Under the pieces are notes generated by a model. The model saw only the letters and a list, made by a program, of their open reading frames with translations. It did no database searches and was not told the origin of the DNA. The position numbers and the translations under genes were made by a program. This document shows positions 18 to 22,600 of a stretch of 33,791 nt of DNA, in pieces. This DNA comes from a virus. The stretch spans positions 1-33,791 of the IMG/VR virus record IMGVR_UViG_3300005613_000236. One strand, given 5' to 3'. Each line of letters begins with the position of its first letter. Position 1 is the stretch's first letter.

Positions 18-46
18 TTGACAGAATCACTCTGAGATCTTACAAT
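18..46 (+). promoter_or_regulatory. Strong sigma-70-like promoter
   Basis: TTGACA at 18-23 and TACAAT at 41-46 are separated by exactly 17 bases. This is a perfect -35 box and a 5/6 -10 box. It lies 30 bases upstream of the 57-aa gene at 76 and fits an early phage promoter read by host RNA polymerase. Function is inferred from consensus only. Confidence 0.7.
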
Positions 47-75: not shown

Positions 76-249
76 ATGCCTGCTATCTATCATTCAGCAC
101 AGAAGAGTAAGTATCGTATCACTTTAGAGATTGATGCCCTGGATGACTTTAATCCTCATCAGATTAAGTGGGAAGAGTTATTCGAATTGCAAGGTAATGA
201 GAGTTGTGAAGCATACATTGAAGACCTGTCAAATCCTGTGAGATGGTAG
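76..249 (+). CDS. Small conserved cyanophage-type protein, 57 aa, function unknown
   Basis: The ORF begins with ATG at 76, preceded by GAGGA at 68-72, and ends with TAG. The protein contains FNPHQIKWEELFEL followed by ESCEAYIEDLS, a pattern I recall from small unknown proteins of T4-like cyanophages. It is acidic, soluble and has no membrane segment. It is the first gene after the promoter at 18-46 and is followed by the hairpin-bearing leader at 250-385. Likely an early accessory protein. The gene call is fairly secure, the function is not known. Confidence 0.75.
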   Translation: MPAIYHSAQKSKYRITLEIDALDDFNPHQIKWEELFELQGNESCEAYIEDLSNPVRW

Positions 250-252: not shown

Positions 253-280
253 ACTTGTGGAAAACTTTTATTCCACAAGT
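253..280 (+). repeat. Hairpin repeat, copy 1
   Basis: A perfect 10-bp inverted repeat, ACTTGTGGAA at 253-262 and TTCCACAAGT at 271-280, encloses the 8-base loop AACTTTTA. There is no U-tract, so a simple intrinsic terminator is unlikely. It begins four bases after the stop of the 57-aa gene. A second copy with the same loop lies at 308-331. Confidence 0.75.
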
Positions 281-307
281 AACACGAACTCTAAGAGGAG
301 AGATACA

Positions 308-331
308 CTGTGGAAAACTTTTATTCCACAG
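308..331 (+). repeat. Hairpin repeat, copy 2
   Basis: CTGTGGAA at 308-315 pairs with TTCCACAG at 324-331 around the loop AACTTTTA, identical to the loop of copy 1. Compared with copy 1, the pair T255-A278 has become C308-G331: both arms changed together and pairing is kept. This points to selection on an RNA or DNA hairpin in the leader of the next gene. Confidence 0.75.
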
Positions 332-827: not shown

Positions 828-866
828 TTTAATTCTTTACACTTTTCCACACTCTTTTTTCTCATC

Positions 867-1187
867 ATGCGTAAGATCGAAAAGCAAATGTACGCCGCCA
901 TTCGTGATAGCAAGTGCTGGAAGTCTGGCAACACTGAGGTTTCCACCGATAGTGATGGTGTCTCCCGTGTCTATCTTCACGGTAACAAGATTGCTGAGAT
1001 TGGTGATGACTACATGACTATCTTTGACGGTGGTTGGCAGTCCAACACTACAAAGTCTCGCCTGAATGCTATCATCAATGCCTTCTGTAATGCTGCCACC
1101 GATGGTGTCTATCAGCGTAATTTTAAGTGGTTTGTGAGTGATAACGAAGTCGAAAAAGATTTCGAGAATGGCTACACCTTTGCCTGA
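867..1187 (+). CDS. Conserved phage protein of unknown function, 106 aa
   Basis: The pattern IEKQMYAAIRDSKCWKSGNT, VYLHGNKIAEI, then DGGWQSNTTKSRLNAI and FKWFV recalls a small family common in cyanophages and other phages, with no known function. It reads as an alpha/beta protein without membrane segments. No Shine-Dalgarno sequence precedes the ATG; the leader is rich in pyrimidines (CTCTTTTTTCTCATC), which suggests SD-independent initiation. Codon use is clearly richer in GC (GCC, CGT, ATC, GGC) than in the late genes. Confidence 0.85.
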   Translation: MRKIEKQMYAAIRDSKCWKSGNTEVSTDSDGVSRVYLHGNKIAEIGDDYMTIFDGGWQSNTTKSRLNAIINAFCNAATDGVYQRNFKWFVSDNEVEKDFENGYTFA

Positions 1188-3811: not shown

Positions 3812-4213
3812 ATGCCAACGGAAAGGATAAGTAAGGGATTTAAAGATATTAGTATGTCATTTCAGATAAATCCAGTGAATGACGATTTAATTGCAGTAAA
3901 AAATGAAACTGCAATTGCAAGATCTCTTAGAAATCTGATATTTACTCAACCTGGAGAGCGATTTTTCAATCAAAATCTTGGTTCAAAAGTCTCAAGAACA
4001 CTTTTTGAGAATATGGATGATCTTACTGCAGTGGTTTTGAAAGATGAAATTGAAAATACAATCAATAATTACGAACCAAGAGTTGATTTGATTGGTGTTG
4101 ATGTGAATCCCGACTATGATAATAATGAATTTAATGTCACAATTCGATATTATATCGTCGGTATCGATGTATTACCGCAACAATTAACATTTGCACTACA
4201 GCCGACACGATAA
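3812..4213 (+). CDS. 25: Baseplate wedge protein gp25
   Basis: Matches T4 gp25 (132 aa there, 133 here) with the family signature FTQPGERFFNQNLG, LFENMDDLTA and NNYEPRVDLIGVDV. GPW/gp25 family members form part of the wedge near the tube and help start sheath assembly at the baseplate. The ATG at 3812 gives the expected length; there is no SD. Its TAA is immediately followed by the ATG of gp6, so the pair is coupled. gp25 contacts gp6 and gp53 in T4. The first 15 residues (MPTERISKGFKDISM) are a short phage-specific extension. Confidence 0.95.
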   Translation: MPTERISKGFKDISMSFQINPVNDDLIAVKNETAIARSLRNLIFTQPGERFFNQNLGSKVSRTLFENMDDLTAVVLKDEIENTINNYEPRVDLIGVDVNPDYDNNEFNVTIRYYIVGIDVLPQQLTFALQPTR

Positions 4214-6124
4214 ATGGCACTAGTAAACTTCACAAATTTAGATTTTGATCAAATAAAGACTTCGATTAAGGATTATCTTAGATCGAATTCAAATTTTACT
4301 GACTATGATTTTGAGGGATCGAACTTATCTACGATTATCGATGTTCTCGCATATAACACTTACATTTCTTCATACAATGCTAACATGGTTAGCAATGAAG
4401 TTTTTATTGATAGTGCAACATTAAGGGAAAATGTTGTTTCTCTTGCAAGAAATATTGGATATGTCCCAAGATCAAAAACAGCTGCAAGGGCAAACATATC
4501 ATTTTTTATCGATACTACAGGTTATAGTTTTTCTCCAATCACATTAACCTTAAAAAAAGGAACTATTTGTGTTTCTAGTGAAAGATTTGGTGAAAATAGT
4601 TTTAGTTTTACAGTTCCTGCAGACATTACTGTACCAGTTACGGAAGGAATTGCAATATTTGATAATGTTGATGTTTATGAGGGTACATTTTTAGTTAAAA
4701 ATTTTACCGTAAACGCAAATGATCCGAATCAAAAATTTATTTTAGATAATTCTGGTATTGATACGAGTAGTATTTCAGTTTTGGTTAGAAATAGTCAGAC
4801 AAGTACGGTAACTAGAAAGTTCACATTAGCAAGTAGTTTACTAGATGTGACTTCAGACTCAAAAGTTTTCTTTATTCAGGAGATTGAAGATCAAAGATAT
4901 GAATTAATTTTTGGTGATGGTATATTTGGAGCAGCATTAGAAGATTCAAATTACATTGAAGTTTCTTATATTACGACAAGTGGAGAATTAGCAAATGGAG
5001 TTTCTAATTTTTCATTTAATGGAAGAATAGTAGATAATAATGATCGCGTAATTACTGGTGGAGTTTCAGTTTTAACTGCAAATACTATTGCAAGAGGTGG
5101 ATCTGATATTGAATCCGTTGAATCGATCAAAAAATATGCTACGAGAATCTATGCTTCTCAAAATAGAGCAGTTACAGCATCCGATTATGAATCAATTGTT
5201 CCTACAATTTATCCAGAAACAGAATCAATTTCAGTTTTTGGTGGAGAAGAATTGAATCCACCTCAATATGGAAGAGTTTTTATTTCAATTAAGCCTATTA
5301 ATGGCGCATTTGTTTCTAGTCAAATTAAAGAAAATCTTAAACGCGATTTAAGAAAATATTCCGTGGCAGGAATTGTTCCAGAAATCTTAGATCTTAAGTA
5401 TCTTTATATCGAATACAATACAACAGTATATTACAATACAAATCTTACACCTTCTGCAAATTATTTACAAACTATTATTTCAAACAATATTACAAATTAT
5501 TCAGAATCGAGTGAATTGAACAAATATGGAGCACGATTTAAATATAGTAAATTTTTAAAAATTATTGATGACAGCAATACTGCAATAACTTCAAATATTA
5601 CTACAATCAATATCAGAAGAAATTTAAGTGCTAGATTAAACACTTTTGCAAATTATGAAATTTGTTTTGGAAATGAATTTTATTTAAAATGTCAAAGTGG
5701 ATATAATGTAAAATCGACTGGATTTAAAATTGATGGGGTTTCGGATACACTTTATCTTTCTGATATGCCAAATGAAGATGGCAAGACTGGTAGAATCTTT
5801 TACTTTAGACTTTTATCCTCTTCAGAACCTCAAATTGTAAGAGATTCTGTCGGAACAATTGACTATGAACGTGGTGAGATTATATTGTATTCTACAAACT
5901 TTTTATCAACAGAAAAATCTAGTAGCGGCCAGCCAATTATTGAAATTTCAACAACACCAAAATCAAATGACATCATAGGACTTCAAGATTTATATCTTCA
6001 ATTAGACACTTCTAGTAGTGTGTTAAATATGGTAGCAGATAACATTTCATCTGGGTTTGATATATCTGGATCATCCTACATCTTGACATCGAGTTATTCA
6101 AACGAAGATTACATAAGACAATAA
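4214..6124 (+). CDS. 6: Baseplate wedge protein gp6
   Basis: 636 aa, close to the 660 aa of T4 gp6. The N-terminus has LDFDQIKTSIKDYLRSNSN and DVLAYNTYISSYNANM, typical of gp6 of cyanophages. The baseplate-J-like core shows FGDG at about residues 233-236, then a segment ASDYESIVPTIYPETESISV (about 322 onward) before YGRVFISIKP. In T4, gp6 dimers link wedges into the ring around the hub and bind gp25, gp7 and gp53. The start directly abuts the gp25 stop. One base separates its stop from gp7. Confidence 0.93.
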   Translation: MALVNFTNLDFDQIKTSIKDYLRSNSNFTDYDFEGSNLSTIIDVLAYNTYISSYNANMVSNEVFIDSATLRENVVSLARNIGYVPRSKTAARANISFFIDTTGYSFSPITLTLKKGTICVSSERFGENSFSFTVPADITVPVTEGIAIFDNVDVYEGTFLVKNFTVNANDPNQKFILDNSGIDTSSISVLVRNSQTSTVTRKFTLASSLLDVTSDSKVFFIQEIEDQRYELIFGDGIFGAALEDSNYIEVSYITTSGELANGVSNFSFNGRIVDNNDRVITGGVSVLTANTIARGGSDIESVESIKKYATRIYASQNRAVTASDYESIVPTIYPETESISVFGGEELNPPQYGRVFISIKPINGAFVSSQIKENLKRDLRKYSVAGIVPEILDLKYLYIEYNTTVYYNTNLTPSANYLQTIISNNITNYSESSELNKYGARFKYSKFLKIIDDSNTAITSNITTINIRRNLSARLNTFANYEICFGNEFYLKCQSGYNVKSTGFKIDGVSDTLYLSDMPNEDGKTGRIFYFRLLSSSEPQIVRDSVGTIDYERGEIILYSTNFLSTEKSSSGQPIIEISTTPKSNDIIGLQDLYLQLDTSSSVLNMVADNISSGFDISGSSYILTSSYSNEDYIRQ

Positions 6125-6125
6125 A

Positions 6126-9100
6126 ATGGCAGAAACGAGAATTAAAATCAGTTCAATTCTGGAAAATCAATTACCAGATTTTGTAAGAGAAGAGTTTCCA
6201 CTTGTAGTAGAATTTTTAAAGCAATATTATATTGCCTTAGAGGGACAAGGATCTACTCTTGATATTCTTCAAAATATCGATCAATATATTAAGGTTGATT
6301 CTTTAGCAAATTTAACTACATCAACAACCCTATCATCTGACGTATCATTTGTAGATGATGAGATTTTTGTCGATTCGACATATGGTTTTCCATCAACTTA
6401 TGGACTTATTTTAATTGACAATGAAATAATCACTTACACTGGAAAAACTAATACTTCATTCACTGGATGTATTCGTGGTTTTAGTGGAGTTACTTCTTTT
6501 GATAATCCCAATAATCCAGATCAATTAGTATTTTCGGAATCTGAAATTTTAGATCATTCTTCTGGTTCGCAAGTTGAAAATTTAAGTGTTTTATTTCTTC
6601 AAGAATTTTTTAAAAAAGTAAAGACTCAAATTACTCCAGGATTTGAAGAAAGAGAATTTTATTCTGGTATAAATGAATCTCTTTTTATAAAACAGTCTAA
6701 AGATTTTTATTCATCAAAAGGAACCGAACAATCTTTTGAAATTCTTTTTAGAGTTCTTTTTGGACAAGATGTAGAAGTAATTAGGCCTCAAGATTATCTT
6801 ATCAAACCATCAGATGCTGACTATAGAATTAATAATGATCTTGTAGTTGAATCTGTTAGTGGGGATCTTGATCAGATTGTAAATAGAACCATTTATCAAG
6901 ATCAAACAGATTTTCTTAATTCTGCTAGAGGAACTGTAACTAAAGTTGAAAGAATTCAAAGAGGAGAAAAGGAATATTTTATTTTAAGTCTTGATTATGG
7001 ATATGACAGAGATATTGATGTTGATGGGACAATTTTTGGATCTTTTTCAATTCATCCAAGCACCCGAATAATTACACCAATAACTGATATAACTTCAACT
7101 ACAATTGATGTAGATTCAACTATTGGATTTCCATCTTCTGGAGAATTAGTTGTTGATTTGGAAAATGGATCAACAATAATAATAACTTATACGGATAAAA
7201 CAAATAATCAGTTTTTAAATTGCTCGGGAATATCGGATCAAATACCATCTGAATCTGAAATAAGATTAAACGCATACGCATATGCTAATATCGATGGTAA
7301 CTTGATTACTTTTAGAGTTACTGGTGTTTTGTCTGATATTTATCATGATAAACCAATTCCTGGATTTAGCATTAATGATCCAGTAACAATCACTTCGTTA
7401 GGAAAATATATTAAAGATGTAAAGTATAATAATTGGTTTTTCAATATTCAGGTTGAATACAATGTAAGATCTATAGATCTTTTAGACTCATCAGATGGAC
7501 AAACTTACGCAATTAATGTATATGATGATCACTCTTTTGTTATTGGAGATACAGTCTTAATTAAAAGAAATGGTGGATCTGATATAACTGCGTTTGTCAT
7601 TGGATATCGAAATGAAAAATCATTTACTGTAAGATCCGAATCTTTATTACCAACAAATGATAACTTGAAAGTTATCAAAAAACTTTCAAAAACTAACTTT
7701 AGTGAATATCCAGAATTAAACATCTATACTTCAAATGTACAGAATGTTTATTGTGATAAAGATGGTTTAAATTTATATGTAACCTCGCCATCACTACCTA
7801 CCTATCTCGATACAATTCTAAGTGTTGATGATGGATCTATTACATTTTCTGGTACATTTAGTGGAACTGATATTAATATTGGAAATCATTCTTTTTATAC
7901 TGGAGATGCTGTTTATTATAGATCTGGAGGATCTGATAATAATCTAGGAATTTCTGATGGAACATATTTTGTAAAAAGAGTAAGTGAAACTATTATTAAG
8001 ATTGCAAGAAGTAGAACAAATTTAAATAATGGTAATTACGTTTCTGTAAATGGTTCTATAACAGATAATCAATTTAGTTATCAAAAATTTGTAGATTCGG
8101 ATGGAACTCTTTTAAAAATAGAACCTCAAAAATTAGTAAGAGAAATATCAGACATAGTATCTCCATCTAGTGATACAACTACTATTCCAGGGCCTATAGG
8201 AATTTTAGTTAATGGTGTTGAAGTTCTCAATTATAAATCAAAAGATAATGTTTATTATGGCCCAATCACAGAAATCAATCCAACTGCTGCTGGATCTGGA
8301 TATGATATTTTAAATCCACCTCTTTTGCAGATAACAGATTCTATTGGATATGGTGCGACAGCACACTGCTCAGTTTTGGGAAACTTAGAAAGAATTGACA
8401 TCCTTGATTCTGGGTTTGATTATGTAAGTGATCCCGTTATTAGAATTACCGGAGGAAATGGATCTGACGCCAAAGCCATAGCAAATTTAGTATCGTTTGA
8501 ACACTCTGTTAGATTTAATGCAACTTCTGGAGTTAGCACATCAAATAACACTATTCAATTTATTGATTATCATAAATTTAGAGATTATGAGAAAGTAATA
8601 TACAATTCTGAAGGGCAGTCTGTTATTGGTGGGTTAGTTTCCGAATCGATTTATTATGTTTCTGTTCAAGATTCTTATACGATAAAATTACATAAAAATC
8701 TTGACGATTCAATTTTGGGAATTAATGAAATATCATTAACATCTCTTAGTACTGGTGTTCATTTATTCAAGTCTTCATCTTTAAAGAAAAAAATAGGATC
8801 TATTACGATCACAAATTCTGGTGTTGGATATCAATCCAAAAAAACCACCACAAGTGTTGCTGGTATTAATACATACTCAAATAGTATTAATATAAAAAAT
8901 CATGGGTACTTGAATGGAGAAATCATAACATATAATTGTACAGAATCTCCCATAATTGGACTTTCTACATCATTGACTTATTTTGTTACAAAATTAGATG
9001 ATGATAATTTTAAATTATCTTTAGTTGGAGTGGGAACTCAAGAAAAAGATTTTTATTATAAAACTAGACAATATATTAATTTACAAAATCAGGGATCTGG

Positions 9101-12100
9101 TATTCACATTTTTAATTATGAGCAACCTTCAGTCACAATTGATGGAATTATTGGTGTAAGTACATTAAGTGGGCAAGATTTTAACGCACAAATTCAACCA
9201 ATATTCAGAGGAGAAATTCAATCCGTTCATGTTGAAAATGGTGGCCAAAATTATGGTTCTGCAGAAATTTTAAATTTAAATCGACAACCATTATTTACTC
9301 CAATAAATGGATCGGGAGCTCAAATTGCTCCTGTGATTGAGAACAATAAGATTGTTGATGTTGTAGTTTTAAGTTCTGGTTCAAATTATAATTCAATACC
9401 AAATTTAATACTTGACAGTAGTACTGGTTCTGGTGCTGTTTTGACACCTGTTATTCAAAATGGACAATTAACTTCTGTTACTGTTATTAATGGTGGAATA
9501 GGATATACTCAATCTAATACAAGTATTAGAGTTGAATCTGCAGGTAGTGGTGCTGGATTTGAAGCAAAGATTAATCCTTGGAATATAAACTTAGTTGAAA
9601 GATTTGTCGAAAGTGGAAGGATAACAGACGATGATGGTTTTGTTTCATCTAGCATTGGAAAATTTGGACTTCAATATTTACATGCATATGCTCCAAGAAA
9701 TTTAAGAAAATCTGTTCTCGGCAGTGGGTTTAAAAATGGTGCCGTTTCATACAAACCAGATCTTAATATTTTAAATGGTAGAGAAATTAATTCAACATAT
9801 CACTCACCAATCATCGGATGGGCATATGATGGAAACCCAATATATGGCCCTTATGGTTATTCTTCAATAACAGGTGGATCAGTAAGATCCATGGTTTCTG
9901 GATATGAATTAAGATCTTTACCAGGAAGGCCTAGCACAAGCTTATTCCCATTAGGATTATTTGTCGAAGATTATGAGTTTGTTGGTGGTGGAGATCTTGA
10001 CGAGCATAATGGAAGATATTGTGTAACTCCAGAATATCCAAATGGTGTTTATGCTTATTTTATGACAATCAACAATGGATCTGTGGATTCCGTTGGAGTT
10101 TTTGAAAACTATAAAAAACCAGTATTTCCATATGTAATTGGAGACTCTTATAAGTCACAACCAAATGAGTTTAATTTTTTACAATCATCTAATCAAACAC
10201 AAATCAATATAAACGAAAAACTTTGGTTCAGAAATACATATCCATATAATTTATCCAGTCCAAATAGTCAGTATAACTATATTTTACAACCAAATAAAAT
10301 AGTTAAACAAAATTCCAATTCAATTTATCAGAGTTCTATTGTAAGATCTGTAGTAGAGGGAAGAATAAGTTCTATTGGAATTTCTAGCGGCGGAAATAAC
10401 TATCAAGTAAATGATTATATTGAGTTTGAAGTAAATGAACTTGATGCGAAAAAACCAGCAGCAAAAGTATCATCAGTTTCTGGAAAGAATGTAATATCAG
10501 TTAGTGCAGCAACATCGAGTTTTACTGGCGTTGAGTTTTATCCTCGGGGAGAAAGTGATAAGTATGTTGCATTTACAACGTCTCCCCATAATTTTAATAA
10601 TCTTGATTTAGTTGATGTAAGTACAACTTATGAATATCAGCAAGAATCTTCGATAATTGTAAGAACTAATTCTCTTTCATTGTCTTCCGGCATTGGATCT
10701 GATGGTGACACCGGTGAAGTCGCATATCTTGAAGTTTATGGAATATTATCTCCAAATTTAATTAGAGAAAATGATATCTATCAGATTGGAGAAGAACAAG
10801 TAAAAATATTGAACGTAGACTCAGACTCTTCAAGAATTCGTGTTCTAAGATCACAAAATGGAACTTCTGGAGTTTCTACTTATCCTGCAGGAACAATTTT
10901 AAATGAATTATCAAGAAAATTTGTATTGAATTTTCAGTCCGAAAATGATTATAATCAAAGAATTAATAAAGAAATTTACTTTAACCCTGCAGAAACTCTA
11001 GGCATAGGAAGTGTTTCTGGAGTTGGAATAGGAACAACAATATTTTTCGCAAATCCTGGAGTTGGAATAACTCAAATCTTTATTCCAACTAAAACACTTT
11101 ATTTAAAAAATCATGAGTTAAGCACTGGTGATCAGCTAATTTATAACTCTAATGGTGGAACTCAAGTTTCAGTTTCTACTGATGGATCTTCATCATTCCA
11201 ACTTTCAAATAACTCTATTCTTTATGCTATTAAATTGTCAAGTGATTTAATTGGCATATCTACCGTAAAAGTTGGATTGGGATCAACTGGATCTATTGTT
11301 GGAGTCGGATCAACAGTAGCATCTAAAAACACACTTTATTTGACAAATGTTGGAACTGGCGATACTCATAGTTTTGTAACAGATTATTCTAATATTTTAG
11401 TTGGAGAAGTATTTAAAAATGAAGTTACTGTATCTACTGCCACAACTCATGGATTGCAAACTGGCGACTATGTAGACATCAATGTAATTTCTGGATTATC
11501 GACAACTATTGTTGTTGAATATGATGATTATAATCGAAGAATGATTATAAATCCAAGATCATTTGTATCTGGGGATGTTAATATTATTGACAACTCAATT
11601 ACTATTTTAAATCATGGATTAAAAACAGGACAAAAAGTAATCCACACTTCCACATCTCCATCAGGTGGACTTATAGATGAAAAAATTTATTATGTTGTGG
11701 CTGTAGACTCCAATACTATTAAATTATCAAATAGTAAATATTTTTCAACTAGAAGCGAAAGAGATCTTGTTGGTATCACATCCGCATCTTCTGGAAGAAT
11801 TTTACCAATAAATCCAAAAATTGAATTTACATATAGCGACTCAATAATTTTTGATTTGTCGAGTTCGACATTATCATTTGCAAATAATTCGGTTTTATAT
11901 TCAGCATTTGATCTTAATTTCTATACCGACTCCAATTTTAATAATAAATTCTTTTTCAGCGATTCTAATAATGTAGAAATTGTTAAGTCTGGAATAGTTG
12001 GTGTTGATACCACAGCATCTTTAACCTTTAGAATTGTCGAGTCAACCCCAAAAAATATTTTCTATCGCTTAGATCCAACAAATTTGGATATTATTCCAGA

Positions 12101-15100
12101 TGTTAAACTGGAGGTGTATGAAGATGAAGAGGTAGATTTCAATAATCAAATTGAAATTGTAGAAAGTGGATATAATGGATATTATTCTATAGTTGGACTT
12201 GGAACAACAACCTTTAAATATAATACACAAAAACTTCCACAAAATTCTGTTTACAATCAAAATAATGCAATTATATCATATTCTACAAATTCATTATCAG
12301 CTTTTGGCCCAATAAATCAAATTGATATTACTTCATTTGGAAAGAATTTATCTTCAGTTCCTGGAATTTCTTCCATCTACACAGAGTATGGAAAAAATGC
12401 AATTTTGATTCCAAATACTGAGGATATTGGATCTGTAATTAAAACTGAAATTGTAGATATTGGATTTGATTATTCCTCAGATTTGAGTTTGAGGCCAACA
12501 GCATCTTTACCTTTAATACTGGAAATTGAAACTCAATCCTCATTTGATACTATTGGAGTATCTTCTGTTGGTAGGGGTTACTATATCTCACCAGATTTAA
12601 TTGTTTTGGATGGACTTTCCCAAGACTTAATTACTGATGTTCAATTAAAATATGAAATTGGCAATTCCTTTGTAGAGATTGTTAAAAACACTAAGGGTTT
12701 GAATAATTTAAATCCAATTATAATTCCAGTTAACAATGTAAATGGTGTTGATATTGATTCAATCACATACAATGATTCTACGAAAGATGTTATAGTAACC
12801 CTAGGAAGTTCTTTTAGTAATGCAGCAGATTTTCCCTTTGAAATTGGTGATAGGGTATTAATAGAAAATGTAAGCGTTGGTGTAGGATCAACTGGAAAGG
12901 GTTACAATTCCGAAAATTATGGATATTCTTTATTTACAATTACAGGAACTGATCCCAATATTGGCGGAATTGGAGCTACTGTTTCTTATAGTCTTTCTGA
13001 AAAAATTGCGGATGGTGAAGTTCCAGGGACATTTGATCCGATTAATTCTGCCGGAAGAATTATTCCAGAAAAAGATTTTCCAATATTTGATATAACCCTA
13101 AGGAAAAATGAATTTTTTAAAGATGAAATTGTTACGAGTAATACTGGATATGGAAGAGTATCGGATTGGGATAATACTAATGAAATTTTAAAAGTATCTA
13201 CTAGAAATAATGGATTTTTAGTTGGTGAAATTGTTTTTGGCAATTCTTCTGCAACAACAGGAAAAATTCAAAAAGTTTTAGAAGACAATTTCATTTATAC
13301 CGTATCTTCATCTTCTGTTACGAACAAAGGTTGGCAAACTGAAACTGGATTTTTAAATAATAAGTTCCAAAGAATTCATGATAGTGATTACTATCAATAT
13401 TTTTCATATGCATTGAGATCACAAGTATCTTTAGAAAAATGGGATGATGCTGTAGGATCTCTCAATCATACTGTGGGATTTAAAAGATTTAGTGACTTGA
13501 TAATTGAGTCCAGTCCAACCATATCTGGTATAAGTACAGATCAAAATGATGGGGATTTTACTGGAATTGCAGATCTTTCAAGATTTATTGATTTGAATTG
13601 TGTGAATGATTTTGATCTTGCATTTGAAAACAATATTACTATTGACAATAAAATAAAATCCGATGAAATAATTTTTAACTCAAGAGTTTTGCAAGATTAT
13701 ATCGAATCGGTTGGTAATAGAGTTTTAATAATGGATGATATAAGTGACAAATTTAGCAGCAATCCTAGGCCAACAAGATTTAGTGTTGTTGATAGATTTA
13801 GTTTAGATTCAAGATCTTTAAAATATATAACTTTTGTAGAGGATTCTAGATTTACAAATCAAAGGCAAATTCTTCTTGTAACTCTCATTCATGATGGAAC
13901 AAATGGATATTTAAATCAATATGGAAGATCTGAGACTGTTTATGATATGGGATCTTTTGACTTCTCAATATCAGGAACTGAAGGACAATTATTATTCTAC
14001 CCAACAAGAAGTTTAATTAATGATTTTAATGTTGAATTAATTTCTTATAATATTGAAAATACTATCGCCTCTATAGGATCTACAAACCTTGGAGATTCTA
14101 TTTTTGTAGGATCGAGTACGACTAGTATACCTGCATCTACTTCTTCTGCAACCACTGTTGTTGGAATTGCATCTACATATAGATCATCGAAAGTTTTGGT
14201 TCAAATTGGTGCTACTGATGGATCATATTTTGAAATGGATGAATTAACAATTATACATGATGGTTCTGATATAATTGTTCAAGAGTATGGACAATTAAAT
14301 ACTGCAAATTTAGAATCATATTCGACTTCTGGATTTGGAACGTATTATGCATATTATTCAGGTTCTGATATAAACATTGACATAACTCCAGACTCAACTA
14401 CTGCAGTTCAATATGACATCAATACCATTAGAATTTCAATAGCAAGTACAGAATCAACTGGAATTGGAACTATTACCCTTAACAATAGTTCCTTAAAATC
14501 TTCACATACTTCTATTGCTGCTACAACTTCCCCAGGAATAACTACAATTTCTTCATACAGTTCTGCATATGAAGCAGCATATTACGTTGTTAGCGTTGAA
14601 GATACTACAAATGGGGATTATCAAGTTTCTGAAGTTATAGTTGTTAGTAATAGCGATGTTTATATTTCAGAATTTGGAATTATTAGAACCAACTCCTCTC
14701 TTGGATCTATTGGAGCAACTGTCAATGGATTGGGTGAAATAGATCTTCAATTTACCCCCATAGCTAATTCAGATATTGAAGTTAAGGTTTTCCAAAATTC
14801 AATTGGATTAACTTCTGAGGATGTGGAAAATGACATAATTGATTTTGATAATGCATTTATTAAAACTGGTTATGGATATTATGAAGGAGCTGAGATTGAT
14901 GTTGTTAGAAGTTTTAATTTAACTCATAAACAAAAACCAATATTTGAACGATATTTTGATGGAAGTTCTTCTACCATTGTCGATATAACTGAAGATACAA
15001 TTAAAATCCCAGAACATTTCTTTGTTACTGGTGAAGAAGTTAGATATACACACTCTGGTGCTGGATCAACATCAGCAATTGGAATTGCATCAACTTCTGT

Positions 15101-18100
15101 TCCTGGAATTGGAGTCACGGATAAACTTCCATCAACTCTTTACATTGTAAAAGAAAATGAATTGAATGTTAAAGTTGCAGTTTCAGCATCAGATGCATTA
15201 AGATCAACTCCAATTACGCTAGATTTAACTTCCGTTGGAATTGGAACTTCTCATAGATTTGTGTCAACTAATCAAAATTCAAAGGTTTTGGTTTCTATTG
15301 ATAATGTAATACAGTCACCTCTTGTCTCTACGGCTATCACAACCTTATTGGCAGATCCGATTGCAATAACAGATACGATAATTACTTTCTCTGGAATTAC
15401 GTCATTCTTTGGAGGTGATTTAATTAAGATTAATAATGAAATTATGAGAATTAATTCTGTTGGTTTTGGAACAACTAACGGTATTTTTGTTCAACGTGCT
15501 TGGGCTGGAACTGGATTTGCTACCCATGCCGACGCCTCTCTCGTTACAAAAATAAATGGAAACTATAATATCAACGATAATGTTATTACATTTATTACTG
15601 CTCCATACGGCCCAACTCCGGTAAGTTCTATAACCAATCCTCCAGATAGTCGTGATTGGGTTGGAATTGAAACACATTCAACATTTAGTGGAAGATCTTT
15701 CATTAGATCTGGAGTTGAAAATTCAAGCGAAGATCAATATGATTCAAATTACATATTTAATGATATCTCTTCTGGATTTGATGGATTAAACAACACATTT
15801 AGATTACTTTCAGACGGAAATAATGTTACTGGAATATCAACTGGAAATTCAATCATTTTAATTAATGATGTGTTCCAAGGCCCAGAAAGATCTGGAATTT
15901 CTGTAAATATTATTGGCGATTATGATCTATCAGAAAATTCTGGAATCACATCAATAACATTCACAGGAAATATATCTTCTACTTCATATGATGTTAACAC
16001 TTCAAGTATTCCTCGTGGTGGAATGATAGTTTCGGTAGGATCTTCTGAAGGTTTTGGATATCAACCTCTTGTTTCAGCAGGTGGAACAGCTATAGTTTCT
16101 GGACTAGGAACAATATCTTCAATTAGCATTGGAAACAGTGGATCTGGTTATAGATCGGGAATTCAAACAGTTGTAAATGTTGGAGTTGCAACTTCAAGTA
16201 CAGGAATTCCAAATGTTGAATTTATCGGAACTGCTGCAATTAGTGGGGGACATATTGTAAGTATTGCAATTACAAATCCAGGAACTGGTTACACATCAAC
16301 AAATCCACCAATAGTTATAATTGATGATCCACTTTCTTATTCTGATATTCCTTTAGTTTACAGTTCTTCTTCCGTTGGATTTGGAACAGCTGCTGTTGCA
16401 AATATTGTTGTAGGACAGGGATCAAGTGTAATTTCTTTTGAAATTACAAATTCTGGATATGGATATGGACAAGGTGATGTTCTTACTTTTGATATTGGTG
16501 GAATATCTGGTATCCCTACAGATCCTACAGCAGCATTTAGAGAGTTTCAAATTACAGTAGATAAAACAATAAGTGACAAATTCTCTGGATGGGTTATAGG
16601 AGATCTGCAAGTAATTGATCCAATTGATGATTTAGTGGATGGAAGTAGAGTTAAGTTTCCAATTAGAATCGATGGGCAACAGACAACAATTAGATCTAGA
16701 AAAGGATCAAATATCGAAGTTGTTGCAAATTTATTAGTATTTGTGAATGATATTCTTCAAGTTCCAAACCAATCATATACATTTGAAGGTGGAAGTATTA
16801 TTACATTCTCAGAACCACTGAAGGTAGGAGATACTACAAAAATTCTATTTTACAGAGGAACTGGATCTATTGATACTATTGATGTTGATGTTTTAGAGAC
16901 AGTTAAAATTGGTGATACTTTAAGACTTAATAGTGATGATCAATTCCTTAAGGAAGATCCTAGACTAGTTCTAAACATTCAATCTACTGATGTAGTAGAT
17001 ACAAACACATATAGTGGCCCTGGAATCACCCCAGATGCAAACTTATTAAGGCCTGTCATATGGTGTAGACAAACAGAAGATAAAATTATTAATGGACAAC
17101 AAGTTGGTAAAGATAGAGAAATATATGAACCTTTAATTTATCCAACTACAAATATTATTCAAAGCGTTGGGATTTCTTCATCTGAAATTTTTGTAGAAAG
17201 TGTAAAAACTTTCTTTGACAGTTTTAATGAAAATTCAACATCACAAAATCAAATTATTTTAGTTTCTCAAGATTCTTTAATTGGTGCATCTGCAACAGCA
17301 ATTGTTTCTACTGGAGGAACAATATCTTCAATTGTAATATCCGATGGTGGTGTTGGGTATTCTACTTCTCCAAGTGTAACTATTTCAAATCCTGTTGGAC
17401 TTGGGACAACATTGAGAGCAAGTGCAACATCTACAATTTCTATTGGAGGAACAGTTTCTTCTATAACTATTTCAAATCCTGGAAGTGGTTATACAACAAC
17501 AAATCCACCTCAAGTTTTAATTGAATCACCTGCAATAAACTATGAAATTATTGAAGAATCTGTCTATGAAGGTGATTTTGGATTTATATCTGGAATACAA
17601 ACAACTTCAGTCGGAGTTGCTTCGACGGGACTTGTATTTGACTTGGCAATTCCTCTCGATTCTTTCTTAAGAGATTCACAAATTAATCCGGTTGGAGTTG
17701 CTTCAACAGGAATAAGTGGAATTCAAACTGGTTATTATTTTGTAGTTTATAATTCTAACGTTGGAAATGGAGTTACTTCATTATATCAGAATGATTCTGT
17801 TTTAGGAATTGGATCAACCTTTATAGACAATGTTTATGAAGTCGCATCCGTTTCTGTTGGACAAACAGATGTTGCTGGTATTGGATTTACATATGTTGCT
17901 AAAGTAACGGTTAGTGTTTCTGATTATAATGGACTCTCTGGACTTGGATATAGTGATTTTTATGGCGAATATAGTTGGGGAAGAATTAGTTCTCTTTCTA
18001 GAACTTCTCCAAAAACATTTAATTATTACAATGAAGGAATTTCTGGAATAACTACTTCAGCAATTGTTAAAAGAATTAATCCACTTAAATTCATAAATTA

Positions 18101-18110
18101 CCTCACATAA
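6126..18110 (+). CDS. 7: Giant gp7-like baseplate wedge protein with YHYH domain and repeat modules, 3994 aa
   Basis: Position after gp6 and the motif DFYSSKGTEQSFEILFRVLF (193-212) match the C-terminal part of T4 gp7 (DFYSTKGIEAS...). The N-terminus (LPDFVREEFPLVVEFLKQYY) also resembles gp7 near its end. The N-terminal two thirds of T4 gp7 has no visible counterpart; instead about 3700 residues follow. These hold VDS-GFPS beta modules (about 75-125 and 325-380), at least six modules with H-x-TGD-x-V-x-Y and YYV (from about 580 on), GxGY repeats, a YHYH domain (T1224-F1312, GWAYDGNPIYGPYGY), three tandem HDG modules (about 2580-2890) and a C-terminal VFVNDILQVP module. The reading frame is uninterrupted. 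Predicted to extend from the wedge to the outer baseplate; the surface role is inferred. Confidence 0.88.
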   Translation: MAETRIKISSILENQLPDFVREEFPLVVEFLKQYYIALEGQGSTLDILQNIDQYIKVDSLANLTTSTTLSSDVSFVDDEIFVDSTYGFPSTYGLILIDNEIITYTGKTNTSFTGCIRGFSGVTSFDNPNNPDQLVFSESEILDHSSGSQVENLSVLFLQEFFKKVKTQITPGFEEREFYSGINESLFIKQSKDFYSSKGTEQSFEILFRVLFGQDVEVIRPQDYLIKPSDADYRINNDLVVESVSGDLDQIVNRTIYQDQTDFLNSARGTVTKVERIQRGEKEYFILSLDYGYDRDIDVDGTIFGSFSIHPSTRIITPITDITSTTIDVDSTIGFPSSGELVVDLENGSTIIITYTDKTNNQFLNCSGISDQIPSESEIRLNAYAYANIDGNLITFRVTGVLSDIYHDKPIPGFSINDPVTITSLGKYIKDVKYNNWFFNIQVEYNVRSIDLLDSSDGQTYAINVYDDHSFVIGDTVLIKRNGGSDITAFVIGYRNEKSFTVRSESLLPTNDNLKVIKKLSKTNFSEYPELNIYTSNVQNVYCDKDGLNLYVTSPSLPTYLDTILSVDDGSITFSGTFSGTDINIGNHSFYTGDAVYYRSGGSDNNLGISDGTYFVKRVSETIIKIARSRTNLNNGNYVSVNGSITDNQFSYQKFVDSDGTLLKIEPQKLVREISDIVSPSSDTTTIPGPIGILVNGVEVLNYKSKDNVYYGPITEINPTAAGSGYDILNPPLLQITDSIGYGATAHCSVLGNLERIDILDSGFDYVSDPVIRITGGNGSDAKAIANLVSFEHSVRFNATSGVSTSNNTIQFIDYHKFRDYEKVIYNSEGQSVIGGLVSESIYYVSVQDSYTIKLHKNLDDSILGINEISLTSLSTGVHLFKSSSLKKKIGSITITNSGVGYQSKKTTTSVAGINTYSNSINIKNHGYLNGEIITYNCTESPIIGLSTSLTYFVTKLDDDNFKLSLVGVGTQEKDFYYKTRQYINLQNQGSGIHIFNYEQPSVTIDGIIGVSTLSGQDFNAQIQPIFRGEIQSVHVENGGQNYGSAEILNLNRQPLFTPINGSGAQIAPVIENNKIVDVVVLSSGSNYNSIPNLILDSSTGSGAVLTPVIQNGQLTSVTVINGGIGYTQSNTSIRVESAGSGAGFEAKINPWNINLVERFVESGRITDDDGFVSSSIGKFGLQYLHAYAPRNLRKSVLGSGFKNGAVSYKPDLNILNGREINSTYHSPIIGWAYDGNPIYGPYGYSSITGGSVRSMVSGYELRSLPGRPSTSLFPLGLFVEDYEFVGGGDLDEHNGRYCVTPEYPNGVYAYFMTINNGSVDSVGVFENYKKPVFPYVIGDSYKSQPNEFNFLQSSNQTQININEKLWFRNTYPYNLSSPNSQYNYILQPNKIVKQNSNSIYQSSIVRSVVEGRISSIGISSGGNNYQVNDYIEFEVNELDAKKPAAKVSSVSGKNVISVSAATSSFTGVEFYPRGESDKYVAFTTSPHNFNNLDLVDVSTTYEYQQESSIIVRTNSLSLSSGIGSDGDTGEVAYLEVYGILSPNLIRENDIYQIGEEQVKILNVDSDSSRIRVLRSQNGTSGVSTYPAGTILNELSRKFVLNFQSENDYNQRINKEIYFNPAETLGIGSVSGVGIGTTIFFANPGVGITQIFIPTKTLYLKNHELSTGDQLIYNSNGGTQVSVSTDGSSSFQLSNNSILYAIKLSSDLIGISTVKVGLGSTGSIVGVGSTVASKNTLYLTNVGTGDTHSFVTDYSNILVGEVFKNEVTVSTATTHGLQTGDYVDINVISGLSTTIVVEYDDYNRRMIINPRSFVSGDVNIIDNSITILNHGLKTGQKVIHTSTSPSGGLIDEKIYYVVAVDSNTIKLSNSKYFSTRSERDLVGITSASSGRILPINPKIEFTYSDSIIFDLSSSTLSFANNSVLYSAFDLNFYTDSNFNNKFFFSDSNNVEIVKSGIVGVDTTASLTFRIVESTPKNIFYRLDPTNLDIIPDVKLEVYEDEEVDFNNQIEIVESGYNGYYSIVGLGTTTFKYNTQKLPQNSVYNQNNAIISYSTNSLSAFGPINQIDITSFGKNLSSVPGISSIYTEYGKNAILIPNTEDIGSVIKTEIVDIGFDYSSDLSLRPTASLPLILEIETQSSFDTIGVSSVGRGYYISPDLIVLDGLSQDLITDVQLKYEIGNSFVEIVKNTKGLNNLNPIIIPVNNVNGVDIDSITYNDSTKDVIVTLGSSFSNAADFPFEIGDRVLIENVSVGVGSTGKGYNSENYGYSLFTITGTDPNIGGIGATVSYSLSEKIADGEVPGTFDPINSAGRIIPEKDFPIFDITLRKNEFFKDEIVTSNTGYGRVSDWDNTNEILKVSTRNNGFLVGEIVFGNSSATTGKIQKVLEDNFIYTVSSSSVTNKGWQTETGFLNNKFQRIHDSDYYQYFSYALRSQVSLEKWDDAVGSLNHTVGFKRFSDLIIESSPTISGISTDQNDGDFTGIADLSRFIDLNCVNDFDLAFENNITIDNKIKSDEIIFNSRVLQDYIESVGNRVLIMDDISDKFSSNPRPTRFSVVDRFSLDSRSLKYITFVEDSRFTNQRQILLVTLIHDGTNGYLNQYGRSETVYDMGSFDFSISGTEGQLLFYPTRSLINDFNVELISYNIENTIASIGSTNLGDSIFVGSSTTSIPASTSSATTVVGIASTYRSSKVLVQIGATDGSYFEMDELTIIHDGSDIIVQEYGQLNTANLESYSTSGFGTYYAYYSGSDINIDITPDSTTAVQYDINTIRISIASTESTGIGTITLNNSSLKSSHTSIAATTSPGITTISSYSSAYEAAYYVVSVEDTTNGDYQVSEVIVVSNSDVYISEFGIIRTNSSLGSIGATVNGLGEIDLQFTPIANSDIEVKVFQNSIGLTSEDVENDIIDFDNAFIKTGYGYYEGAEIDVVRSFNLTHKQKPIFERYFDGSSSTIVDITEDTIKIPEHFFVTGEEVRYTHSGAGSTSAIGIASTSVPGIGVTDKLPSTLYIVKENELNVKVAVSASDALRSTPITLDLTSVGIGTSHRFVSTNQNSKVLVSIDNVIQSPLVSTAITTLLADPIAITDTIITFSGITSFFGGDLIKINNEIMRINSVGFGTTNGIFVQRAWAGTGFATHADASLVTKINGNYNINDNVITFITAPYGPTPVSSITNPPDSRDWVGIETHSTFSGRSFIRSGVENSSEDQYDSNYIFNDISSGFDGLNNTFRLLSDGNNVTGISTGNSIILINDVFQGPERSGISVNIIGDYDLSENSGITSITFTGNISSTSYDVNTSSIPRGGMIVSVGSSEGFGYQPLVSAGGTAIVSGLGTISSISIGNSGSGYRSGIQTVVNVGVATSSTGIPNVEFIGTAAISGGHIVSIAITNPGTGYTSTNPPIVIIDDPLSYSDIPLVYSSSSVGFGTAAVANIVVGQGSSVISFEITNSGYGYGQGDVLTFDIGGISGIPTDPTAAFREFQITVDKTISDKFSGWVIGDLQVIDPIDDLVDGSRVKFPIRIDGQQTTIRSRKGSNIEVVANLLVFVNDILQVPNQSYTFEGGSIITFSEPLKVGDTTKILFYRGTGSIDTIDVDVLETVKIGDTLRLNSDDQFLKEDPRLVLNIQSTDVVDTNTYSGPGITPDANLLRPVIWCRQTEDKIINGQQVGKDREIYEPLIYPTTNIIQSVGISSSEIFVESVKTFFDSFNENSTSQNQIILVSQDSLIGASATAIVSTGGTISSIVISDGGVGYSTSPSVTISNPVGLGTTLRASATSTISIGGTVSSITISNPGSGYTTTNPPQVLIESPAINYEIIEESVYEGDFGFISGIQTTSVGVASTGLVFDLAIPLDSFLRDSQINPVGVASTGISGIQTGYYFVVYNSNVGNGVTSLYQNDSVLGIGSTFIDNVYEVASVSVGQTDVAGIGFTYVAKVTVSVSDYNGLSGLGYSDFYGEYSWGRISSLSRTSPKTFNYYNEGISGITTSAIVKRINPLKFINYLT
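9795..10061 (+). other. YHYH domain inside the gp7-like protein
   Basis: Residues 1224-1312 read TYHSPIIGWAYDGNPIYGPY at the start and DEHNGRYCVTPEYPNGVYAY at the end, the hallmark of the YHYH family. The domain occurs in bacterial secreted proteins and in cyanophage structural proteins; its function is not known to me. The key Y, H, D, G and P positions are kept. Confidence 0.85.
16107..17530 (+). repeat. Nearly identical segments within the gp7-like gene
   Basis: GGAACAATATCTTCAATT occurs at 16107-16124 and 17316-17333. A second pair at 16287-16309 and 17487-17509 differs in two of 23 bases. The two pairs have similar internal spacing (180 and 171 bases), indicating a duplicated block of about 200 bases encoding GxGY repeats. 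Confidence 0.6.
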
Positions 18111-18130: not shown

Positions 18131-19684
18131 ATGTCTGCAATAATTACTGATCAACTTCGTATATTAAATGCTGAAAATTTTGTTTCAGCAGCAACTTCCA
18201 GTGCAAATTCATATTATTCATTTGTCGGGCTTCCAAATGCAACCGACTATGATTCTGACTGGAATACAACTCCTCCTGCACCAAAAGATAATTTTAATCA
18301 AGAGAATGATTATTGGGATACAATGATTGCCCTCAAAAAAATTAATGACGGTGATGTTAAGCAAGTTGTAAGAAAAGTAACATGGATAACCGGAACTACT
18401 TATGACATGTATCGTCATGATATAAGTAGAACTAATTTATCAAAACCATCAGAATCTACTAGTTTATATTCTGCAAATTATTATGTTTTAAATAGTGACT
18501 ATAGGGTTTACATTTGTTTATATAATGGTTCAACTCCAGAAAATCCATCTGGGGTTCCTTCATTGGATGAACCAACTTTTACAGATTTGGAACCAAGAAC
18601 AGCTGGAACAAGTGGAGATGGATATATTTGGAAATATTTGTATACGATTAAACCAAGCGACATTGTAAAGTTTGATTCTGTAAATTATATGCCAGTCCCA
18701 AGAAATTGGGAAACAAACATTGACGTATCTGCAGTAAGAGATAATGCTGCAACATCTGGACAATTAAAAATTGTTACTATTACAAATAGAGGAGTTGGAC
18801 TTGGAACCGCTAATAGAACTTATTCTAGAGTTCCAATTAAAGGAGATGGTACTGGAGCAGAAGCAACAATTGTAATCAATAGCAACTCTGAAGTAGATAC
18901 TATTACGGTTTCAAAGGGAGGTTCTGGATATACTTATGGAAGTGTTGATTTAGAATCCGGAAATGTTCCAACTGGAACTACAAGGCCAACATTTGATGTA
19001 ATAATTCCCCCACAAGGAGGACATGGTGCGGATATTTATCGTGAACTTGGAGCATATAACGTATTAATTTACTCCAGAATTGAAAATGATACTGAAAATC
19101 CAGATTTTATTACTGGAAATCAAATTGCAAGAGTTGGAATAATTGAAAATCCTCAGACATATAATTCATCAAATCTTCTAATCGAAGATAAGGCAAGTGC
19201 AGTTTATGCATTGAAATTAATTGGTGCTGGTTATAGTTCTGCAGTTTTTGCTGGCGATAGTAGAGTAACACAAACGATTGGTATTGGATCTACAGCTGTT
19301 GGAAGAGTAGTATCTTATGATCAAACAACAGGAATATTAAAGTATTGGCAAGATCGTTCTCTTGTTGGATTTAATACTAATGGAACGCAAAATAACAATC
19401 CAACCTATGGATTTAATTTAAATAGATTTACTGCATCTCCAACAACTGGAGGTTCTGTGACAATTTCTGGTGGTAGTGTATCTTTAGGAATTGATACCTC
19501 ATTCACTGGTATAACTACCGTAATAAATAGTAGGACATACAACCTTGGACAATCGTTTATTAGCGGTTTAGCAAATCCAGAAGTTAAAAAATATTCTGGA
19601 AATATAATTTATGTTGACAATAGGCCTTCTATTACTAGATCGTCTAACCAAAAAGAAGATATTAAAGTCATTTTGCAATTTTAA
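18131..19684 (+). CDS. 8: Baseplate wedge protein gp8
   Basis: Follows gp7 as in T4. Conserved signatures are TDYDSDWNTTPPAPKDN near the start, GDGYIWKYLYTI in the middle and GNIIYVDNRPSITRSSNQKE at the C-terminus, which matches the C-terminus of T4 gp8 (GEMIYMENRPPI...). At 517 aa it is much longer than T4 gp8 (334 aa); the surplus is in the middle and contains GxGY modules (ITNRGVGLG, VSKGGSGYTYG). In T4, gp8 is a dimer bound to the gp6-gp7 wedge. Expressed from the tandem late promoter upstream; the next gene starts six bases after its stop. Confidence 0.93.
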   Translation: MSAIITDQLRILNAENFVSAATSSANSYYSFVGLPNATDYDSDWNTTPPAPKDNFNQENDYWDTMIALKKINDGDVKQVVRKVTWITGTTYDMYRHDISRTNLSKPSESTSLYSANYYVLNSDYRVYICLYNGSTPENPSGVPSLDEPTFTDLEPRTAGTSGDGYIWKYLYTIKPSDIVKFDSVNYMPVPRNWETNIDVSAVRDNAATSGQLKIVTITNRGVGLGTANRTYSRVPIKGDGTGAEATIVINSNSEVDTITVSKGGSGYTYGSVDLESGNVPTGTTRPTFDVIIPPQGGHGADIYRELGAYNVLIYSRIENDTENPDFITGNQIARVGIIENPQTYNSSNLLIEDKASAVYALKLIGAGYSSAVFAGDSRVTQTIGIGSTAVGRVVSYDQTTGILKYWQDRSLVGFNTNGTQNNNPTYGFNLNRFTASPTTGGSVTISGGSVSLGIDTSFTGITTVINSRTYNLGQSFISGLANPEVKKYSGNIIYVDNRPSITRSSNQKEDIKVILQF

Positions 19685-19690: not shown

Positions 19691-22600
19691 ATGCCCAAAG
19701 GAATAAATCTCAACGTTTCTCCTTATTATGATGATTATAATCCCAAAAAGGGTTATTATCAGGTTCTTTTTAAACCAGGGTATCCTGTTCAGGCAAGAGA
19801 ATTGACAACATTGCAGTCAATGCTGCAAAATCAAGTTGAACAATTTGGTTCTCATGTATTTAAAGAAGGTGCAAAAGTCACTGGTGGAGAAGTAAGTTAT
19901 AATAATCAACTAGAAACAGTAATTCTTGAAAATGAATATTTTGGAGTAAGTCCAGAGTATTATCTACAGTTTATTTCAGGTAAAGTAATTCGAGGACAAA
20001 CTAGTAACATTAGAGCAAGAATTGAGTTTTATATAAATGGCAGTTTGTCAATTATTGGAAAGCCAACGATTTATGTTACATATTTAAGTTCAAGTTCTTC
20101 TGATGATACTAGAAGTTCATTTTTGAGTGGCGAAACACTTATAGTTGAAGAAACAGTTTCTTTAGAAGAAGAATTTGCAAACGTTGGATCACAGGCATTG
20201 CAATCTGGCGAAGGATTTGCGATTGTAAATTCAACGACTTTAGCATCAGCTGTTTACATGAACTCTGGTGTTTATTTTATTAGAGGTAGATTCGTAAGTG
20301 TTTTTAATGATATTCTGCTATTAGATCAATATTCCAACGTTCCTTCATACAAGGTTGGGTTAAGAATTTTTGAAGATATTGTAAACTCATATGAAGATCC
20401 CACATTGAATGATAATGCTCAGGGATTTTCCAACTATGCTGCTCCTGGTGCTGATAGACTGCAAATATTTGCAAAACTTGATAAAATTGACATTAACGAT
20501 ACAAATATTGACAATTTTATCCTCTTAAAAGAAATTAGAGATGGTGTAGATTTAACTCAAACTAGAACAACTGAATATAGCACATTATCTCAAGAATTTG
20601 CGAGAAGAACATTTGACGAATCTGGTGATTATTATGTAAAAATCCCAAACATTTCTGCGAAAGAAACTTTAAATAATCTTTTGGGAAATGATGGAATATT
20701 TAGAGAAAATCAAATTACTTATAATAATAATGTTCCCAGTGAAAGTTTAGGGACTTATGTCATCTCACCGATGAAAGCTTATGTGAGAGGATATGAAATT
20801 TCTACGAATGGAACAACATTTATAGACTTTCAAAAACCAAGAACCACAAAGTTTTTGCAAAATCAAGAAGTTAATTATTTAACTGGCCCAACATATACCT
20901 TAAATCGAGTATATGGAACTCCAATTCTTGGATTGAGCACTTCATATACTGTAAGTTTGAGAAATGAAAGGGTTGGAACTTCTCAAACTACTGCTCCAGG
21001 AGAAGAAATCGGATTAGCAAGAGTTTATGATTTTGCTTTAGAATCTGGATCATACGATACAGCAAATGCAAATTTAAATCAATGGGATATTGCACTATAT
21101 GATGTTCAAACATATACAAACATAGTACTTAATGAACCAATTACACTTTCTACTCCTACTCATATAAAAGGAAAATCTAGTGGGGCAGTAGGATTTTTAA
21201 GATATGATTCAACTAATTCTGGAATAATTACTGCATATAATACTTCCGGAAAATTTTCTGTTGGAGAAAAATTAATTTTTGATGGAATTGAAAATACTAG
21301 AGTTTCTACAGCAATAACAGAAAAGTCAACTAATGATATTAAATCAATATATGGTATTGTAGGATCCGCATATACTTTTACCGGTGACGTAAAGCAATCT
21401 ACATTAACAGATGTTGGAACTGTTAATATTTCAGCAGCTTCTGGAGGAATTAGTACAGTCACTTCTCCAAACACGATATTCACAGGAATTGCAACAGTTG
21501 GAAATCTGGTATCGTTTACAGAACCAGGATTGACTGTTAACACTTTTTCAAAAATTGAGTCTGTATCTCAAAATGCCATTACAATTTCTGGAGTTACAAC
21601 TGTAACTGGAGTTTGTGAAGGTGCTTTACCATCTTCAAGTATTAATCCAACAGATTTTAAAATTCTAACAAGTAGATTACAATCTTCTTCCGATAATACT
21701 TTATATACAGTTTTACCAAAAAGATTTATTTCATCTATAGATTTAACAGATTCAAATTTAGTCATTAGAAAGCAGTTTAATGTAACTATATCTTCAAATT
21801 CTACTGGAACTATTACTGCTGGGGATAATGAAACCTTTTTACCATTTGATGAAGAAAGATATGCTCTTATAAGAGAAGATGGAACTACCGAAGAACTTAC
21901 ACAAGATAAGTTTGTTTTTTCGCTGGGATCTAAAGAACTTACAATTAGTGGACTTGGTTCAAATGGAAATGCAAAATTAATTGCAACATTAAGAAAGATA
22001 AGTGTAAAATCGAAAATTAAAAATAGGAATAAGGTACAAACAATAGTAGTAGATAAATCTAAGTATGAAGGTTCTGGTATTGGAAATACAACTTTAAACG
22101 ATGGCTTGACATATGGAAATTATGCATATGGTACTAGGGTTCAAGATCAAGATATTTGTTTACTTTTCCCAGATGTAACAAAACTTTATGGTGTATTTGA
22201 GTCTAAAAATACATCAGATCCTGAATTACCAAATATCATTTTCACTTCTTTAGATGGGCCAACAAACAAGGTTGGAGATCTTTTAGTTGGAGATACTTTT
22301 ATTGGACAATCCAGCAATGCTGTTGGCATATATGTTGAGCGAGTAAATGATCTAAAAATTAATTATGTAAACTTAAATACTACTTCATTTGTGGAAGGTG
22401 AAACTGTAGTATTTAAAGAATCTGGTATATCTGCTGTTATTGGTGCGATTGACATTGGTGATAATAATATAACTTCCAATTATACTCTGACAGAAGGATT
22501 AAAAAATTCTATCTATGATTATTCCAAAGTAATTAGAAAAACAACATCTAAAGAACCGACTAAAAAACTCAAAATTGTATTTGAATATGCAAGTTTCTTG

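Follow-up and report, generated by a model that had tools for sequence, protein, structure and literature searches.

Paired DnaA-box palindromes and a candidate oriE-like origin upstream of the Gp96-gp25-gp6 genes of T4-like cyanophages

The window analysed here, meaning the whole 33,791-nt (33.8-kb) stretch of IMG/VR record IMGVR_UViG_3300005613_000236 (positions 1 to 33,791), belongs to a T4-like cyanophage and carries a Kyano_Gp96 gene, followed by the baseplate wedge gene gp25 and by gp6 at 4214. At its left end a small gene of unknown function, ORF1, is preceded by a sigma70-type promoter-like site, and two palindromes lie between ORF1 (76-249) and the small ORF that follows it at 386 (Table 1). 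At the position homologous to the promoter-like site, the relative L125 reads TTGACA-N17-TATACT.

Table 1. Features of the left part of the window; positions count from its first letter
Feature	Position	Strand	Remarks
Sigma70-type promoter-like site, TTGACA-N17-TACAAT	18..46	+	11/12 match; in front of ORF1
ORF1, 57 aa, phrog_12516, unknown function	76..249	+	In relatives, directly downstream of the DnaA-box/promoter region
Palindrome 1	253..280	.	Inverted DnaA-box 9-mers TTTTCCACA (minus, 256-264) and TATTCCACA (plus, 269-277), 4 bp apart
Palindrome 2	308..331	.	Inverted DnaA-box 9-mers TTTTCCACA (minus, 309-317) and TATTCCACA (plus, 322-330), 4 bp apart
Single exact DnaA box TTTTCCACA	843..851	+	15 bases 5' of the Gp96 gene
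Kyano_Gp96 gene (PF23790, phrog_554)	867..1187	+	Landmark; boxes cluster 0.5-2 kb upstream in relatives
gp25 baseplate wedge gene (PF04965)	3812..4213	+	Landmark; box pairs 1.6-7.6 kb upstream in named genomes

The 22-mer TGTGGAAAACTTTTATTCCACA occupies 256-277 and 309-330, with no further site in the window at up to three mismatches and no occurrence in 100 dinucleotide shuffles of the window, in agreement with an earlier reading of this DNA (the sequence-only reading) that had described two leader hairpins with the same loop and stem. Its account of a single differing base pair (T255-A278 versus C308-G331) and of a missing U-tract was also borne out: no T-run follows either palindrome, and a terminator scan of positions 1-1500 lists neither, on which grounds an intrinsic terminator was rejected. 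Hairpin 1 pairs over 253-280 (10 bp) and hairpin 2 over 309-330 plus C308-G331 (8 bp), the predicted RNA fold of 236-400 reaches -45 kcal/mol (z -3.2), and both palindromes lie within a 48-nt direct repeat whose copies are 81% identical and 53 bp apart.

What the sequence-only reading had missed was a DnaA-box 9-mer in each arm, together with the exact box in front of the Gp96 gene. In both palindromes the left arm is an exact TGTGGAAAA. Its reverse complement, TTTTCCACA, is named as the cyanobacterial DnaA box in the available portions of three papers (PMC4674748, PMC3480399, PMC6323995), and each right arm differs from that box by one mismatch. The window thereby contains two inverted pairs 53 bp apart and one single box, the left arms and the single box matching the box of the host group exactly. 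Over its full length there are four exact boxes against 0.83 expected, one of them (14822) far away, and the one-mismatch pattern TTWTNCACA is not enriched in the window (5 versus 6.7 expected). In the cyanobacterial oriC (Synechococcus elongatus, Anabaena, Cyanothece) the identical 9-mer is present as tandem copies 2-4 bp apart, often inverted further on, whereas here it is found in a lytic phage with few boxes, and the window's copies form 4-bp-spaced inverted pairs and no tandem array. The tandem pattern TGTGGAAAA-N2-4-TGTGGAAAA was detected in 183 of 291 genomes of the cyanobacterial class (the class of a Nostoc genome), the reversed-pattern control gave 0 in every row for these 291 genomes, and of the 30 host loci retrieved, 17 had a DnaN gene within 3 kb. 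A scan with TGTGGAANNNNNNNNTTCCACA yielded, among the matches listed, loci from mixed organisms, from which L209, L210 and L230 were taken; the matches listed by a genome-contig scan were also from mixed organisms, and three cyanobacterial genomes were used. We consider it very probable that the palindromes are DNA elements carrying paired DnaA boxes and not RNA hairpins.

In relatives of the window, the 9-mer was concentrated upstream of the Gp96 gene. Across 84 loci, the interval from -2000 to -500 (three 500-base bins, 94 kb) contained 88 copies (74 plus, 14 minus; about 0.94/kb), compared with 24 copies in the remaining 424 kb (0.06/kb), and for 51 less redundant loci the corresponding counts were 64 copies in 117 kb versus 10 in 232 kb. 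Only one of the 27 one-substitution variants of the 9-mer, TATTCCACA, which is the second arm of the palindrome, was clearly raised in the 51 loci, and an unbiased count of all 9-mers in 50 loci ranked the motif near the top for over-representation (60 copies, 1.7 expected). Many of the copies are direct repeats of the form TGTGGAAAA-NNN-TGTGGAAAA, in a 12-bp register with variable linkers, so this hairpin cannot form there. Tandem array and palindrome occur together in L209, with five boxes within about 66 bp. In another locus, a stretch of about 180 bp (L146:390-570) holds six exact DnaA boxes in both orientations.

A survey of 22 named T4-like cyanophage genomes (4,235,171 bases) recovered 82 exact boxes, at 0-8 per genome. 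Forty of the 82 were located within 8 kb upstream of gp25, where 3.4 were expected, and binomial P values for such counts overstate independence because some genomes are close relatives (Syn1/S-RIM44, Syn30/S-P4). Closely spaced boxes exceeded chance in these genomes as they did in the relatives: all 17 pairs of boxes no more than 50 bp apart fell within the 8 kb upstream of gp25, in 12 of the 22 genomes, and none elsewhere. Tandem boxes were found in Syn1, S-RIM44 and Sf-CH11 (three boxes each), S-SM2, and ACG-2014d, inverted pairs in Syn9, S-SM1, Syn19, Syn33, Syn30, and S-P4, and both arrangements in S-PM2. The 12-bp register is seen in Syn1, S-RIM44, Sf-CH11, S-PM2, and many contigs, and is absent from the window itself. 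S-CAM4 and S-SCSM1 had one exact box each in the 8-kb interval before gp25, and eight of the 22 genomes had none there (P-SSM2, P-SSM4, S-RSM4, P-HM1, S-SSM7, Bellamy, ACG-2014j, and ACG-2014h). The sample was biased in that S-CAM4, Syn1, S-RIM44, ACG-2014j, ACG-2014d, and Sf-CH11 had been chosen through matches to palindrome or array searches, and S-SCSM1 and S-SM2 for their resemblance to the window; pairs were present in 7 of the 14 genomes picked without regard to boxes. Six genomes were added later. Their 17 boxes included 7 in the 8-kb interval before gp25, where 0.74 were expected, and the same interval took in all three of their pairs, which were confined to two of the six, P-SSM7 and P-TIM68; P-RSM4 had one box, and P-HM2, P-SSM3, and P-RSM1 had none near gp25.

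Among 16 host genomes of at most 1.9 Mb, presumably Prochlorococcus, one showed the tandem pattern (table read by eye). An account by host matching, in which phages of Prochlorococcus would lack arrays, initially fitted P-SSM2, P-SSM4, and P-HM1 and was rejected on the pairs in P-SSM7 and P-TIM68 and the single box in P-RSM4. The array of S-PM2 (NC_006820) lies at 19,231-19,264. Read density in S-PM2 is raised 2-3-fold just downstream of the ORFanage deletion (5,799-15,339), which the accessible part of the source reads as terminal redundancy (PMC4503421); its proximity to the 19.2-kb array is a loose lead.

The arrays adjoin a conserved stretch of the type GTTGTCTTAGCACGCNNCCTATCGATTGTCAA, the opposite strand of which reads TTGACA-N17-TAAGAC or TTGACA-N17-TAGACT, a sigma70-type pattern pointing leftward, against the genes. 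When 22 regions of 10 kb were scanned, this leftward pattern (TTG-type-N17-TAAG/TAGA) turned up in 20, with 26 leftward versus 3 rightward matches, and each of the 12 array genomes has it at a distance of 51-84 bp from a box; judged by pattern, an early-mode (host sigma70) promoter accompanies the repeats. The first hexamer of the Syn9 promoter is TTGTGT. P-SSM7, which had been held out, has the pattern beside its inverted pair, and no promoter match was found in the fetched 3 kb of P-TIM68 or P-RSM4. Bellamy, S-RSM4, ACG-2014h, ACG-2014j, and P-SSM4 keep the promoter with no exact boxes nearby, so DnaA boxes are not universally needed; in S-CAM4, the promoter is about 1 kb from the palindrome. 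Other repeats were observed beside the core, namely TTCTCAAT/ATTGAGAA in S-RSM4 and ACG-2014h (L577, L587) and GGATACTACCCAAT in S-CAM4 and Bellamy (L569, L584). AT-richness beside the arrays is moderate: the least stable 60-mer near the array falls among the lowest 0-7% for its 10-kb region and is the overall minimum in one of the 12 array genomes. The GC skew of Syn9 (2.5-kb bins) did not switch at the array and was uninformative on the origin.

The window has no tandem-box core because the contig starts 75 bp before ORF1, and its own core, if present, would have been cut off, to judge from its closest relative, L125, whose ORF1 is 98% identical. In L125, TTTTCCACA-ATG-TTTTCCACA is found about 340 bp 5' of ORF1, followed in order by a leftward promoter (TTGACA-N17-TAGACT, 10/12), a rightward promoter (11/12), ORF1, and both palindromes, and a two-way terminator (L125:806-832) would limit the leftward RNA to roughly 270 nt. 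A similar core occupies this position in most of the ORF1 relatives examined; exact boxes accompany it in some and are absent in others.

Our best reading is that the palindromes belong to a larger DnaA-box cluster that appears to be conserved upstream of Gp96-gp25-gp6 in T4-like cyanophages. We lean, with considerable reserve, towards the palindromes being satellites, as DnaA-box pairs, of a neighbouring oriE-like origin, which would recruit host DnaA. The core of such an origin would comprise tandem boxes in the 12-bp register or closely spaced inverted boxes, AT-rich DNA, and the leftward promoter. Early in infection, host RNA polymerase would transcribe the AT-rich stretch and the boxes leftward into a short RNA, host DnaA on the boxes would bend and open the DNA, and the phage replisome could begin replication from either the RNA or an opened strand, in the manner of T4 oriE, with the palindromes about 500 bp away supplying extra DnaA-binding sites. 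What the sequences show directly is the boxes, their clustering and position, the promoter pattern, and the agreement with published DnaA boxes; DnaA binding, RNA synthesis, and origin activity are predictions from sequence. Several of the phages surveyed have their own annotated gp59-type helicase loader, and the DnaA domain PF08299 was found in 0 of 22 genomes with positive controls; given the phages' own loader and no PF08299, reliance on host DnaA is assumed. More tentatively, and with some doubt, we extend the proposal to the T4-like cyanophages (Kyanoviridae), in which a host-DnaA-recruiting oriE-like origin upstream of gp25 would combine 12-bp box iterons, AT-rich DNA, and an early promoter directed against the genes. 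The repeats would then be an exchangeable cartridge on a constant core, made up of DnaA boxes in some genera and of other repeats in the rest.

The oriE origin of T4 lies near genes 5 and 6; it shares with the cyanophage site, which is upstream of baseplate-wedge genes, the 12-nt repeat register and, judged by pattern, an early-type promoter. According to the available portion of a T4 review, oriE has evenly spaced 12-nt direct repeats and an early-mode promoter, and the role of its iterons is ill defined (PMC3016281). Unlike the cyanophage repeats, the oriE iterons are not described as DnaA boxes in that portion of the review, from which the word DnaA is absent. For the Pseudomonas phage PseuGes_254, an AT-rich stretch with DnaA boxes has been proposed as the origin by software, as given in the accessible part of the report (PMC11512268); that is a prediction for a single genome, whereas the cyanophage site has kept its position, arrangement, and promoter in many genomes. 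Origins with DnaA boxes and origins with iterons are both familiar, and their combination in T4-like cyanophages appears to be new, no mapped replication origin or DnaA-box cluster having been found for these phages in the literature covered (titles and the beginnings of abstracts, few subscription journals). If the proposal is correct, host DnaA serves as the borrowed initiator of a lytic phage that has a replisome of its own, and lytic-phage replication is tied to the host's cell-cycle initiator. The candidate is conserved and precisely located in the named laboratory phages Syn1 (array at 58700-58760), Syn9 (52.6 kb), and S-PM2 (19.2 kb), which makes the origin and iteron questions directly testable.

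The main rival to the origin reading, which we regard as unlikely, is that the boxes bind host DnaA either for titration, blocking initiation of the host chromosome, or for the repression or timing of flanking early promoters, with replication starting elsewhere. It would rest on the same DnaA-box evidence, and it is consistent with the location of the palindromes in leaders between small genes, beside promoters, and with the several phages that have the core promoter and no boxes. Titration, however, needs neither a fixed position nor the 12-bp register nor the fixed distance of the boxes from the leftward promoter, and the few boxes per genome would titrate little before the phage DNA replicates.

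Alternatively, though we think it improbable, the 9-mers might be sites for a different protein that happens to favour the DnaA-box sequence, such as an initiator or regulator encoded by the phage. The presence of the same core with other repeats makes the recognition site look exchangeable, and boxes in P-SSM7 and P-TIM68, both isolated on Prochlorococcus, point the same way; the 9-mer matches the host oriC box exactly, tandem arrangement included, which argues for DnaA, as does the clustering of the published consensus and not of neighbouring 9-mers.

A shade less probable still is the interpretation favoured by the sequence-only reading, of tandem RNA hairpins in small-gene mRNAs that would bind a protein or protect ends. 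Both copies fold well, and the exact 22-mer recurs in 12 IMG/VR stretches with two different leaders. In two of these (L004, L011) it follows a close ORF1 relative, as in the window, and in the other ten it lies between CAGCTGCC or CAGCCGCC and GG(A/T)CAAT, with a different small gene downstream; named carriers of the palindrome include S-CAM4, ACG-2014j, Syn1, and S-RIM44. The flanking pair varies among T-A, C-G, and T-G. The claim that pairing is conserved while the sequence changes found no support across 14 palindrome copies (10 distinct), in which 88.0% of cells were paired versus 88.4 ± 1.1% in shuffles, 401 of 500 shuffles being at least as high. The seven inner pairs are invariant in the 10 distinct homologues, which left no basis for a covariance model of the palindrome, and at the three outer positions pairing is lost in 12 of 30 cells. 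The outer stem therefore decays without paired changes, an outcome that the sequence-only reading had itself named as refuting its proposal. In L050 and L083 the C-G flank has been lost (C-A) and the right arm has turned into a perfect box, TTTTCCACA; in these two and in the second L125 copy, both arms are exact boxes. The core GGAAAACTTTTATTCC, consisting of the loop and the inner GGAA/TTCC, is common to 38 IMG/VR stretches, and where the TGTGGAA arm is missing, in 26 of them, 25 form stems of no more than 5 bp, which indicates that the whole arm sequence is held and not pairing alone. A known Rfam family or conserved RNA element was rejected, since the window has no Rfam match at the gathering score and covariation does not exceed shuffles, and the clustering of the arm sequence as direct repeats also weighs against hairpins. 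The proposal of an undescribed regulatory RNA element survives in part, as a real, conserved, and apparently undescribed cis element of cyanophage small-gene regions that is probably protein-binding; its action as RNA is not sustained, as the same 9-mer also occurs as direct repeats.

Very improbable is a PeSL-type recombination cassette (promoter plus stem-loop) shuffling small genes: PeSL cassettes of T4-type phages, reportedly the subject of work by Arbiol in 2010 and Comeau in 2014 that is cited in PMC4503421, resemble this region in having a stem-loop and promoters of the sigma70 type among the small genes of a plastic region, the surroundings are highly mosaic, and the 22-bp palindrome, present in some of the homologous leaders compared (L043, L115, L057, L173) and cleanly absent from others (L115, L057, L173), resembles a discrete insertion, but the cyanophage palindromes have no terminator features and have DnaA boxes as arms, and such a cassette leaves the tandem direct repeats and the DnaA-box identity unexplained.

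Several further observations concern the window. A 43-nt repeat around CTAAAGTGTCTCAATAGTGTAAGGAC occurs at 338-380 and 593-635 (86% identical), just 5' of two small ORFs, and close variants precede many different small genes in relatives; it resembles a promoter or start signal. The sequence CCCTAACCTACAGAGGTGACAA at 1522-1543 recurs in P-TIM68 just after the box pair (L643) and in L150 downstream of ORF1. The contig begins with TAAATA (1-6), which may be a cut T4-type late promoter; in relatives the sigma70-type promoter of ORF1 is preceded by ATAAATA. A 221-aa ORF at 3126-3791 matches phrog_3704, labelled ferredoxin, and two very long ORFs span 6126-18110 (3994 aa) and 19691-24937 (1748 aa).
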